From: Fimbriimonadaceae bacterium
GTDB lineage: Bacteria; Armatimonadota; Fimbriimonadia; Fimbriimonadales; Fimbriimonadaceae
Direction of reading: 5' to 3'
NCBI GenBank assembly: GCA_020847855.1
Contig: JADLBH010000004.1
Span: 1 to 61,273, forward strand
Length of the DNA stretch: 61,273 nucleotides
Below are positions 12,877 through 20,427 of this stretch, piece by piece. Under the pieces are notes generated by a model. It did no database searches. It was not told the origin of the DNA and worked only from the letters and a program-made list of their open reading frames with translations. Within the stretch, counting starts at the first letter, position 1; every line of letters starts with the position of its first letter. Both the position numbers and the translations under genes were made by a program.

Positions 12877-13779
12877 TCAATTCTCCTTCCTCGGGTCGCG
12901 AGGTCGAGGGTTGGTCCAGAGCACTTGCCCCGTAGCGGAGTCCACATCGATGCACAGGTCGACCCAACGGCCCTGATACGAGAACTTCTCAATCATGAAC
13001 CTCCAGGCTAATCGGATCTCTTTGGTACTTCCGCCTCGGCCCCGAAACGTAGCTCCTGGCGTGTCTGGCCGCGGCTCGGAGTAGCCCAGCTCCATGGTCG
13101 AGTATTGAGACCCCGAGCCGAAGTGCTCGAGGGCAACGGCCTCCGCGATCCTTCGGGCTGCGGCCTCGCCGATCAGGTCAGTATCACTTGTAACTTCACC
13201 AGGCACGTATGCCGAATACTCAAGCCACTCGCCATCCAACGGATCGAGCAAAAGCTTGAACGATCCGGCCAACGTAAAGTACGGCGTACCGCGAGCGTCA
13301 GTGCGCCGGAAGTAGCCATAGCTCGAACTGGTGCCTCGGTATCCGTCTCTCGGAATCTGAATCTCAGCTGGCGGATCGTCCGCATATAACTCTAACCTGG
13401 TAGCGACGTACTTCATACCTTGGTACAGCAGTTCGGCGGCTGCTTCCAGCCTGCGCAGAGCCACGTCCCGTTCCGGGAGTTGGCCTCGGCTCTCCCCAGG
13501 CTTCCGGGCCTCCCGGAGTGCGAGTCGACTGCTGTTGATAAACGACGACACGAACTTGGGTTCGTCGCCAACGTGAAATGTGCATCGCTCGAAAGCCACG
13601 ACGTACTCTTGGGCCCCATCCGACCCTTCCACAGCCATTGCAGCTCGAAGTGGGCCGGACAGCACGTTGGCTAGCGCCGCAAACCTCCTTGCCTCCGCGA
13701 TTGCGAGTTCGAGACGGTCGGTTTGCCCCGGACTCCAATCCGAGGAGAGTAGCACGGCCAGAGCGAGCACGCCCGGCAT
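12877..13779 (-). CDS. Secreted PepSY/YcdB-like protein
   Basis: This 300-residue protein starts at ATG 13779, inside TAATG where the upstream frame stops, with GAGGG just before it. MPGVLALAVLLSSDWSPG is a signal peptide. The C-terminal region (about 215-300) has a PepSY/YcdB character: AARRIAEAVALEHFG, then LAWRFMIEKFSYQGRWVDLC and IDVDSATGQVLWTNP. PepSY-type domains often act as inhibitors or chaperones of secreted peptidases. That would suit a gene coupled to the caspase-like reading frame directly upstream, but the functional link is inference. Confidence 0.65.
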   Translation of the reverse strand: MPGVLALAVLLSSDWSPGQTDRLELAIAEARRFAALANVLSGPLRAAMAVEGSDGAQEYVVAFERCTFHVGDEPKFVSSFINSSRLALREARKPGESRGQLPERDVALRRLEAAAELLYQGMKYVATRLELYADDPPAEIQIPRDGYRGTSSSYGYFRRTDARGTPYFTLAGSFKLLLDPLDGEWLEYSAYVPGEVTSDTDLIGEAAARRIAEAVALEHFGSGSQYSTMELGYSEPRPDTPGATFRGRGGSTKEIRLAWRFMIEKFSYQGRWVDLCIDVDSATGQVLWTNPRPRDPRKEN

Positions 13780-16745
13780 TAGCTGCCCTCCGACACGACG
13801 CGAAACCAGTGCCGCCAAAACACGAACACCGGCCATACGGTGTGGTCACCGATCCATACATCCTTGAGCCGCGTCGTGTCATCCCCGTAGACCACGAGGT
13901 ACGGAAACTCCTCAGCCTCCTCGTTTCCGATAAGGTCGGCATACTCCTTTGCCGCCTTGTTTCGGCAATGAAACAGGGTATTACCCAGTCTTGCCCATCT
14001 CCAGAATTCAGACGCTACTTCGTCCAGAAGTGCGTTCGCAGCTTGCCACTTCCAGCCCATCTCAGCTCGGTCCTCAATCTGCTCCGGCTCGTACTTGTTG
14101 CGCTCCGGGTAGCAGAAAGCCGGCAAGAACTCCGGGCCCATGCCCGTGTTGCACGAGTCGACCCTGGCGAACGCGATGGGCGGGATGCCGGTCGGGTTGA
14201 AGGGGGGGGAGTCGCTCGGGTGGCAAGTTCGTGCCGACCGCTCCCTCGCGCACTGGCTCGACCTCGTTGCCCGACCCAGGCGCGACAAGCGAGTAGACGG
14301 GCGTGCCAGGAGGGTTCTCGTTCGCGCCTGCAGTGCCGTCGGCGAAGTACGACTTGCCCGGCTGGATGAAGTGCCCGTGGCTGGCCACGTAGAAGATTGT
14401 ACAGCCTGCGATGTCTCCCAGGCACTGGGCGGCGAACCAGTTCGGGGCCGAGACTTCGGCCTGGTTCACGTACCCCATCGCGTCGAGGGCGTCCATAGTT
14501 GGGGTAAGCGAGTCGCCGGTCGCAACGAAGTGGCTGAGGATGTAGCCGGCGGCCATGTTCTTGATCGGCACCGTGATCTCCGTGTGCTTCTCCGGCTGGC
14601 CGACCTCCTTGGCTTCCAGGCGCACGACGCAGTTCGAGGTGCCGGCACCCCAGCGGGTCGAATCGAACATCACGTGCGCCCGCCAGCTGGAGAACAGTTC
14701 GCGCTCCTCGGGCGTGAAGGTCTTCCCGTAGACCGTCTCGCCGTTGAGCTTGATGCGGAAGCTCTCGAAGCCCAGGGAGTGTCCTGGAAGACCGTCCGTA
14801 CGCTCTGGGTGCGGGCTTTCGGTGCGCCGCTCTCCGAGCTGAACTGGCGCAGCGGGCCCTCTGCGCTGGTGGCGCCGGGGGTGGTGTAGTCGTTGCGGCA
14901 GCAGCCTTGGAAGCCCCCCCTCCAGCCGTTCGAGGCGAAGTCGCGCCAGCCGATGAACCGGCACCGCTCGAAGACAGCGCGGAGGCCGCCCTTGGGGACG
15001 CTCTCGAAGCGCAGGCTCGCGTGCTCCGCGGCCACGCCGTCTTTGCACTTGAGCTTGCAGTCCTGCACGTAGAGGCCGTAGTCGGTGCCGGGCGTGCCGC
15101 CCTGGTCCGAGCCCTTGACGAGCGCCCCGAGCGTCCCTCCCCTCATGCCGTCGAACTCCGTGCCGCGCAGCGTGAGGTCCAGGTTGTTCCTCGCGCCCTG
15201 GCCGTCCACCGCGTCGTAGTCGAGCACAGTGGTGCAGTGCTCCACGCGCCCGCCGACGAGCTGCACCGTCCCCGTCCCCCGCCGCACCTTCACCAAAGTG
15301 CCGTGGCCGAACACGCCCTCCGCGTCGTCGTTCTCGAAGGTCCCCTCGAGCCCGAACGCAGTAAACCCGTAACCGGGTGAAGGCGCCTGCGCGAACTCGA
15401 GCATCACCCCGCCCGAGTCCAGGCTGAGGGTTGAGCTCACCAGGTCGTGGCCGAAGGACTGCGGGGCGTCGGAGTAGTACCCCCGGCGGCAGTTCTCGCT
15501 CTTGAGCCGGGCGAGGTAGAGGTCCTCGCCGTTGACCCCCGTGCCCTCGAGAACGCCGAGGACGGTGTCCGGGAACGCGACGTTCACCCGTTCCACCACG
15601 TGTCCCACGAACTGGCTCGTGGCGAACAGCACGCCGAAGCTGGCGTTGCGCACCCCGGGCTGGCCCGCCGGCGGGTTCGTGGCCTCGTCGTTGCCCTTCA
15701 GGCTTAAGCCTTCGAGCCGGTAGTACAGCCCCGCCGAGCGGCGGAACGAGACGATGCCCGAGTCCGGCAGGCACCGCACGACATAGGTCGGGTCCGTCGA
15801 GGGAGCGCCTTGGATCGGGGTGATCGGCCCGAGGAACGCGGGGCTAGCACTGGTGTCGTGGACGATGCGGAAGTAGCAGTTCACCTCGTCGATCGTGTCG
15901 GTGGTGTCGTCCCCTAAGTAAACGACCGAGTACGGGTTCGAGCCGAGGGCGGTCTCGATCGCCGCGACGACGGTCGCGTGTTGCTCCGTCACGTCGATGT
16001 CGGCCGTCGTGCCGCCTCCCACGGCCCCCGGCAGTACCAGGCGGAATGTATCCGTGTCTACGGTGCCGACGTTGGACGGGAGGCAGTACCGGTTCGAGCA
16101 GTCGGAGGTGAGGCGCAAGTTGCAGGCTTGGCCGTCGGTCTCGCGCCGTGAGTTGCCGGTCTGGCCGACGAAGGTGAGGCCCTGCTGGTTGTGGTCCTTG
16201 AACTTGTCCTCGCCTTCGGGCTGGTCATAGTCCACGTCGTCGTCGCCGAGCCAGAGAGGGCGGCGGAGGAAGAACTCCCCAGAGCTGCCTTCGAGGCGGA
16301 CCCCGTTCTCGCCGCACCAGTTTAGAACGGCCTGGATGGCGGCCCAATCGGCGGTGTCCGCGTCCTTGAGCCCGTTGAACGCCTCCCCGTGCCCGCCGGA
16401 ATAGGTCGCCTTGACATGCGCCAGGCTTGCGAAGCGGAGGCCGGGCCCGGTTTGCGCCGCCAGGGTCGTGGTCGCGCCTGGTGCCCCGAACTGGCGGGTG
16501 GTGAGGAAGCCGTTGTGTAGCAGGAGCAGCCGCCCCGCGATGAACGCAGGCGGATCGGTCGCCCAGACGCCCAAGACCGAGCCGTCGTTGGGAGGTGCGG
16601 TCGAGGCGCTCACCTTCCTCCAGATCCCGCCCCCGCCGTCGTCCGGGGCGTAGTAGCCCTGGACGATGCAGTGGTCGCCGTTGCCGATGTTCGCGTAGTC
16701 CGATTTCATGTCGGCTACTGTCCCATACTTCCTTACGGTCGCCAT
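13779..16745 (-). pseudogene. Beta-helix (tailspike-like) plus caspase-like protein, interrupted by two frameshifts
   Basis: Read from ATG 16745 (AGGA eight nt upstream), the first frame runs to about 14776. It encodes some 655 residues starting MATVRKYGTVADMKSDYAN, with GYYAPDDGGGGIW as in phage tailspike N-termini, followed by a parallel beta-helix. Coding then continues in a second frame from about 14776 to the G8 run at 14202-14209 (C8 on the coding strand), and then returns to the first frame. Adding one base near 14775 and removing one C from the C8 run would give a single frame of about 988 residues. The second and third parts form a clan CD peptidase-like domain: His in YVASHGHF (codon 14377-14379), Cys in VDSCNTG (codon 14151-14153) and a later MGWKWQAANALL segment. 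The C8 run lies between the His and the Cys. The part after 14776 has no ATG, GTG or TTG start of its own nearby. It could be sequencing error, decay or a switchable gene. Confidence 0.65.
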
Positions 16746-18755: not shown

Positions 18756-18872
18756 CGGACTTCAGTCCGTCGCGTCGCAGGTCGGGAAGATTTTCGCCTA
18801 AGCCAAGGACGACCGGGGTGCCCGAATGAGCGGCTCAAGCCGCGCACTCCCTATGGGGAGCGGACTTCAATC
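18756..18872. repeat. Two copies of a short palindrome downstream of glmS
   Basis: CGGACTTCAGTCCG at 18756-18769 is a perfect inverted repeat with a two-base loop. CGGACTTCAATCCG at 18859-18872 is a one-base variant of it. A related half-site AGAAGTCCGC lies at 18736-18745, and CTCCC-TAT-GGGGAG sits between the copies at about 18845-18857. They could act as terminators or belong to a dispersed palindrome family; nothing else identifies them. Confidence 0.5.
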
Positions 18873-18978
18873 CGGCCCTAGACGGCCTCGATCCTGCAAC
18901 GGCAACGCGGAAGCGCTTGCGAACGGTTCGCGCCAAGAGCATGAACCCTTCTGTCTCGCCAAGCGTCTGATCTTTTAT

Positions 18979-19003
18979 GGCGTGGCGTGGCGTGGCGTGG
19001 CGT
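18979..19003. repeat. Pentanucleotide repeat (GGCGT)5 at a gene start
   Basis: Five perfect GGCGT copies are followed by a partial GGC. They begin at the last base of an ATG at 18977-18979 and lie inside the signal-peptide-coding region of the gene that ends at 20427. With five copies, the ATG runs into a stop at 19016. Losing one copy would put the ATG in frame with the long reading frame. Confidence 0.8.
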
Positions 19004-20427
19004 GGCTTTGCGCCCTAGGGGCTTGCGTCGCAGGGGTGCAGCCTTACGGCGGGCCGCAGTTCGGCGGAGCGGGCCAGATCGAGTTCCTGACCGCCGGTGG
19101 TCAACCCGGCACAGCGGTTGACCGGGTCAAGGCCCTGTCGGCTTCGACGCTCTTGCAGATTCCCGGTCAGCCCGGCCCACCGAGCACCCGGCAAGAAGCC
19201 AAGTTCAAGCTCAAGGCGGTTTGGGAGCCTGCCGAAGGCTGGGGGCTCGCCGGGTTCGAGTGGCAATACTTCTGGCAGCCGCCCGGCGGTCCGGCCATCC
19301 CTGCCGACGCACTCACGATCATCGAGGGCCAGTTCAACCAGTACGCGACCGGCCGGGCCGCGCTTCCCGGGATCTTCTGGGCCAAGGTCGGCATCCGCCG
19401 CCAGCACCCCGGAGGCTATATCGAACCGGTCGGGCAGCCCGGGGTGTGGCTCAGCGCCCAGTGCTGCGCCTTCGGCGGGCCGCTTCAGCTGGGGGTCACG
19501 GGTCGCGAGCCTGGCGACAAGACGCAAACCTGGCTCCAGATTGGCCGCGTTTCCAGTGCAAACAATACCGCCAACAGTGAGCCCTGGTACCTCCAGTACT
19601 TCGGCTACGCGCCGGATGCGGCAGTCCCGGCCGGGTACCAACAGACCCAGGACGCGGCCGCTGCGCTCAAGTACTCGCAGCCCGAGGGCGTCGAATGGGT
19701 GTGGATGAACGTCCCCGGCACCTGGAGCGAGACGCTGGCGGGATGGCCGACCGAGTGGCCCGACCCGCCCGCGGTTGACCGTCAAGCCACCGAGGCGTTC
19801 GAAGGGCGAGAAGTGAAGTGCGAGTTCTATGCAGACGTGGAGTTGCTGGACGGCTTCCAGTCTGGAGGTTCGGTAGAGACGTATCCGGCCGGGTTGTTCT
19901 CGAACACGGGCGAGGACGACACAGAGCAAAGTCTCTACGAAGTCGTCCCCAACACTCCTTATCCGCCGAACCTCAAGATGGTCAGCAAGATCACCGCCGC
20001 TGAGCCGGGCGAACTGACGCGAATCGAGAACTTTCCGTACGACCCGAGCGCAAACCCGTTCCGCAGGTGCGGCCGCAAAGTCCGGTGCAACCTCAAGGAC
20101 ACGGCGAGCCGCAACATGCCTGGCGTTCTCTGCCAAGAACGCTTCCCCGAACCGAACGAGATGCCGCCGGGTGTCGCGGTGAACACCGAGGCACAGGCGT
20201 GGTACACGCTGCACTTCGCAGGCATCGAGATCCCCAATGGGAACTGGAACCGGTACGACGAACTAAGGTACGTCTGGCCCCCCGGGCCCCCATACCCCTA
20301 CTACGACTTCCCACAAGAATACTGGGTAGCGACGAAGAGTCTGACCCAAGGAGGCATTTTGAAGCGCTCCTGGACGATCAAACTGACCCAAGGACAGCCC
20401 GGGACGTGCGAGCAAGATGAAAGCTAG
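18982..20427 (+). CDS. Secreted protein of unknown function, possibly phase-variable start
   Basis: This is about 481 residues if translation starts at GTG 18982, the first in-frame start inside the signal-like segment VAWRGVAWLCALGACVAGVQ. The start is uncertain. The more natural ATG at 18977 is out of frame by one repeat unit, and the frame is open upstream to about 18826. The body is rich in Gly, Pro, Trp and Tyr, with Cys residues in QCCAFGG and FRRCGRKVRCNLKD. It resembles a secreted beta-rich protein, but I recognise no domain. The next gene overlaps its stop by 11 nt and is probably co-translated. It lies between intact glmS and a glmS fragment. Confidence 0.6.
   Translation: MAWRGVAWLCALGACVAGVQPYGGPQFGGAGQIEFLTAGGQPGTAVDRVKALSASTLLQIPGQPGPPSTRQEAKFKLKAVWEPAEGWGLAGFEWQYFWQPPGGPAIPADALTIIEGQFNQYATGRAALPGIFWAKVGIRRQHPGGYIEPVGQPGVWLSAQCCAFGGPLQLGVTGREPGDKTQTWLQIGRVSSANNTANSEPWYLQYFGYAPDAAVPAGYQQTQDAAAALKYSQPEGVEWVWMNVPGTWSETLAGWPTEWPDPPAVDRQATEAFEGREVKCEFYADVELLDGFQSGGSVETYPAGLFSNTGEDDTEQSLYEVVPNTPYPPNLKMVSKITAAEPGELTRIENFPYDPSANPFRRCGRKVRCNLKDTASRNMPGVLCQERFPEPNEMPPGVAVNTEAQAWYTLHFAGIEIPNGNWNRYDELRYVWPPGPPYPYYDFPQEYWVATKSLTQGGILKRSWTIKLTQGQPGTCEQDES

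Follow-up and report, generated by a model that had tools for sequence, protein, structure and literature searches.

Several described systems resemble parts of the locus analyzed here. Among clan CD peptidases, the closest are the CHAT/separase-like protein of SAVED-CHAT (PDB 8tl0) and gingipain K (family C25, PDB 4rbm). For the beta-helix, the counterparts are the phage tailspike depolymerases LKA1 gp49 and AS12 gp42. A further resemblance is to simple-sequence-repeat contingency loci, such as lic and hmw of Haemophilus, in which a non-triplet repeat at the 5' end sets the reading frame. The locus lies in a stretch of 61,273 nucleotides (the window) from a Fimbriimonadaceae bacterium. The initial annotation saw in it one protein of about 988 residues, a tailspike-type beta-helix joined to a clan CD-like domain across two compensating frameshifts, and proposed that the length of a C8 run decides whether a complete catalytic pair is made. 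Comparison with relatives reveals two separate, intact genes in place of the single one, and it is highly probable that the locus is a relic of two broken, unrelated genes, the intact members being exported pairs that in many cases are probably switched by repeats.

The description of the locus itself holds. The three minus-strand ORFs are 16745..14670, 15774..14074 and 14288..13779, the first and third sharing a frame from which the second differs. The C8 run is at 14202-14209 (G8 on the plus strand), between the SHG motif, with its His codon at about 14377-14379, and DSCNTG, whose Cys codon is at about 14151-14153. The features are as follows.

14772..16745, minus strand: truncated tailspike-like beta-helix gene, 658 codons, colinear with intact relatives up to ...QDTPW
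14770..14772, minus strand: breakpoint between the unrelated genes, from DNA alignment, with GGC common to both sides
14670..14769, minus strand: out-of-frame tail of the beta-helix ORF, the caspase-like gene read in the wrong frame to a stop
14210..14778, minus strand: 5'-truncated clan CD-like gene with part of the Ig-like domain and the His half, 82% identical to an intact paralogue (G000:C37:230k)
14202..14209, minus strand: C8 run between His and Cys, where the frame is broken by 1 nt with respect to the intact paralogue
13779..14207, minus strand: C-terminal clan CD-like part with the catalytic Cys, an otherwise invariant Tyr being changed to Trp
12877..13779, minus strand: intact gene of a PepSY-type secreted partner, with a TAATG overlap with the preceding stop

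Neither half of the locus has a convincing family match in Pfam or PHROG, and the origin of the two halves has been traced through their relatives. A search with the beta-helix part finds the intact proteins L012 (1087 aa, 48% identity) and L013 (1017 aa, 41% identity). After ...QDTPW they go on as QTGPR..., for about 370-430 residues unlike the caspase-like part. The relatives of the beta-helix part, of about 1,020-1,090 aa, never come with a caspase domain. The tailspike-type fold that had been claimed is supported by a structural model of the window segment, whose confidence is only moderate (pLDDT 71.8, pTM 0.78). The model matches phage tailspikes and capsule depolymerases, with Foldseek E-values of 3.6e-7 for LKA1 gp49 and 5.8e-7 for AS12 gp42. 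At the sequence level the phage matches are weak (E 9e-4), and no relative of the beta-helix part was found on viral contigs (IMG/VR). Nor was a phage context found: the window neighbours, glmS and UDP-glucose dehydrogenase among them, are non-phage, and the paralogues adjoin dnaK and sdhA. The second beta-helix copy of the genome (L011, G000:C2:42356-45335) is likewise disrupted: it has an in-frame TGA and, close to a G-run, a frame break.

A search of the same genome with the middle segment finds uninterrupted copies on contigs C37 (82% identity) and C27 (43% identity). Each encodes a standalone protein of some 360-420 residues that starts with a signal peptide and ends near the equivalent of window position 13779. 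Six further standalone caspase-like proteins come from relatives. In profile searches the family is present in 20 of 85 genomes from the taxonomic family and in 33 of 291 from the phylum, with 11 copies elsewhere in the genome of the window. An intact member is an exported, single-gene product made of a signal peptide, an Ig-like domain and a caspase-like domain with the His and Cys.

The two homologies meet at 14770/14772. The beta-helix homology, aligned at the DNA level to the C2 paralogue, stops at 14770, and the caspase-like homology, aligned likewise to an intact paralogue (L002), begins at 14772. The supposed compensating frameshift near 14775 is therefore a breakpoint, where two different genes have been joined; only the other change, at C8, is a true 1-nt frame break. 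The join sits inside the Ig-like domain of the caspase-like gene, 3' of its start codon and signal peptide. Since both of these are lost, no frame repair and no length of the C8 run would give a complete secreted protease. A real tailspike-caspase fusion, its frames linked by frameshifting or run-length switching, is scarcely credible. The outer frames do agree and both folds are real, but such a fusion would require two separate frame changes and a join that removes the start of the Ig-like domain along with the signal peptide, its C-run is not conserved, and no relative carrying both domains was found among the family and phylum genomes searched by profile. In the apparent fusion, the broken end of a tailspike-like gene is joined to a separate gene, for a secreted caspase-like protein, that has lost its beginning.

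The C8 run has lost its proposed role as well. The site differs by one base from the intact paralogue in the DNA alignment, which breaks the frame, and at the equivalent position the 31 family members have C-runs of 2-6 nt. Because the run is not conserved, C8 is a lesion and not a switch, and its role as a contingency tract can be ruled out. The remnant has, in addition, a Trp where all 31 relatives have Tyr. Upstream of C8, dN/dS to the intact paralogue is about 0.16, which indicates that most of the divergence occurred under constraint and that the break is comparatively young.

Could the assembly be chimeric at about 14771, and C8 miscalled, so that two intact genes are concealed? The assembly is a draft of 41 contigs and C8 runs are generally error-prone. 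However, the join lacks a long repeat, with only 3 bp shared between its sides, and the missing halves were not found elsewhere in the genome (the beta-helix C-terminus missing here is present only in the C2 paralogue); the short overlap and the absence of the missing halves therefore argue against an assembly error. The window has six G/C runs of at least 8 nt, against about 9.6 expected from base composition, and a run of this length is thus nothing unusual. Four other C8 or G9 runs are in intact genes with the frame kept, making a systematic miscall of C8 less likely. The lost Tyr and the second broken beta-helix copy also speak against an artefact, which we consider unlikely.

Under the favoured reading of two broken genes, a deletion or similar rearrangement would have joined the 5' two thirds of the tailspike-like gene, out of frame, to the interior of the clan CD-like gene. 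The latter would then, or before, also have lost its frame at C8, the PepSY-type partner downstream of the remnant staying intact. A variant, that the shortened beta-helix protein (16745-14670) is still expressed alone and only the caspase-like remnant is dead, draws on an ORF that is open for 691 codons from the ATG at 16745. That product would be without the C-terminal residues kept in intact relatives, and dN/dS between the two broken beta-helix copies of the genome is about 0.58, a relaxed divergence. The variant is quite improbable.

The clan CD-like assignment, in contrast to the fusion, is upheld by the intact family members. For the C37 paralogue, the AlphaFold model (pLDDT 84.7, pTM 0.82) matches SAVED-CHAT (Z 14.8), DdvA (14.5), gingipain K (12.6), MALT1 (12.6) and caspases (about 12). 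Separase, metacaspase and asparaginyl endopeptidase are also among the clan CD matches, whose Z-scores run from 14.8 to 11 over 160-200 residues. In the model, His210 follows strand 204-208 and Cys285 follows strand 279-283, successive strands as in clan CD. Both residues are present in all 31 family members, and the Gly after His in 29 of them. At the sequence level, none of the 31 members scores above the cut-off against Pfam (caspase C14, gingipain C25, CHAT), a sequence profile search of PDB gave nothing significant, and a PADLOC search gave no match. The model and the conserved dyad indicate that the caspase-like clan CD fold of the family is real, and the intact members are most likely extracellular proteases. 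As a multi-copy exported caspase-like family, absent from Pfam and uncharacterised, it is new.

The caspase-like genes do not usually stand alone. Nearly all copies have, about -130 to +55 bp downstream, a gene for an exported, often C-terminally anchored protein. Among 31 such partners, Pfam matches are to PepSY in seven (best E 7.9e-4) and to DUF4901 (YcdB/YcdC) in four (best 2.3e-5); the partner in the window has no Pfam match. PepSY domains are known from the propeptides of proteases, and the pair is therefore most naturally read, and most likely works, as an extracellular protease whose PepSY-type partner inhibits or chaperones it in the manner of a propeptide. In openly licensed literature, no relevant paper on PepSY and caspase-like proteins was found.

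Another feature of the intact copies is a tandem repeat at their starts. Five paralogues in the genome have at the 5' end a tract of the octamer GGCGCATC, perfect or degenerate; the tract is a variant octamer in a sixth copy and a heptamer in a seventh. In all, 7 of the 11 other copies of the genome have a non-triplet tandem repeat just 3' of an ATG whose frame differs from that of the signal peptide. Every perfect octamer tract found in the 2.5-Mb genome is at these caspase-like genes, and none was found in 150 relatives. In other genomes the same place is taken by a pentamer, (TCGGT)6 in G053 (L041), or by a different heptamer, (TCAGGGC)6 in G106 (L045). The unit lengths at all these copies are 5, 7 and 8 nt, none a multiple of three. 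In a control of 421 kb that included the window, the same criterion found four tracts, three of which are arranged in the same way at other genes, probably for secreted proteins. Paralogues sharing a tract are not independent, so that the basis of the enrichment is no fewer than four different repeat units, as opposed to nine separate events.

At 12 of 12 repeat-bearing starts the ATG is 1-18 nt upstream of the tract and does not share its frame with the long body; eight of the 12 have no other in-frame ATG, GTG or TTG. All the tracts are in the OFF frame and no ON copy was seen, which would have a chance of 0.8% if one third were ON. OFF could be the common state of the tracts. In the C27 and C37 clusters, the ATG is 7-10 nt 3' of a promoter-like sequence, TTGACA-N17/18-TANNNT as read by eye, with TTGACG in one of five. 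A tract-free paralogue (C37:232k) has the same arrangement of promoter and ATG, the ATG being in frame. The tract-bearing ATG is probably a leaderless start. Two genes with only 22% identity between their proteins agree at 70/73 positions (96%) of the module of promoter and start, consistent with exchange of the 5' module between paralogues.

Two other accounts of the tracts were considered. Programmed frameshifting would need a shift of +1 in six loci and +2 in six, which does not agree with a single fixed direction. Nor is the octamer supported as an element specific to the family everywhere, as it is present in 38 scattered, unrelated GTDB contigs.

Some further observations concern repeats. 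In the genome of the window, caspase-like and PepSY-type genes alternate in arrays at two loci (L077 and L078, on G000:C27 and C37), where the octamer tracts are at the gene starts. In the window, (TGGCG)5.8 at 18978-19006 (gene 18826..20427, plus strand) comes right after an ATG whose frame is not that of the probably secreted ORF of 473 aa, a layout like that of the caspase-like paralogues. Two uncharacterised ORFs (L130:2538 and L130:5425, at G000:C37:182.5k and 185.4k) have (AGCCTCA)5 and (AGCCTCA)8, respectively, right after the ATG and before a signal-peptide-like sequence; these are the only two sites of the AGCCTCA heptamer in the genome. In G011 (L057), a caspase-like gene has (CTTT)7 at its 5' end, the repeat being 5' of an in-frame ATG. 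At the very start of the contig, positions 1-91 are a 21-bp tandem repeat of 4.3 copies.

From the position and frames of the repeats, many intact copies are probably phase-variable: the body would come into frame if the tract between ATG and signal peptide gained or lost one repeat unit. On balance, we lean towards a broader picture in which this bacterium and its relatives would have a phase-variable arsenal of exported caspase-like peptidases, each with a PepSY-type regulator. The repeat would act 5' of the signal peptide, behind an ATG that is probably leaderless; the module would be exchanged between paralogues, and the same switch would operate at unrelated secreted proteins of the genome. 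A search of openly licensed papers for phase variation in Armatimonadetes found none, which would make this a candidate for repeat-driven switching of secreted proteins in a lineage without a report found of such switching. The analysis also removes a false multidomain fusion from the record, and brings to light a multigene family, uncharacterised so far, whose exported caspase-like products nearly always have a PepSY-type partner.

With respect to the systems described at the outset, CHAT/separase-like clan CD proteins are the best structural match, with the same placement of His and Cys. Unlike CHAT, the family is exported and has an Ig-like N-domain and a PepSY-type neighbour, and only one of its members approaches PF12770 (E 0.091). 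Gingipain K, too, is a bacterial clan CD peptidase that is secreted and has an Ig-like domain; here, however, that domain is N-terminal, Pfam C25 is not matched, and no known secretion tag was found. LKA1 gp49 and AS12 gp42 have the right-handed beta-helix in common with the window beta-helix, but sequence identity is very low and the gene here has neither adjacent phage genes nor an IMG/VR relative. As in lic/hmw-type loci of Haemophilus, the paralogues have a non-triplet 5' tandem repeat that decides the frame. Unlike in those loci, the units of 5, 7 and 8 nt lie between the ATG and the signal peptide and are common to a clan CD-like multigene family, and the host appears to be an environmental bacterium.
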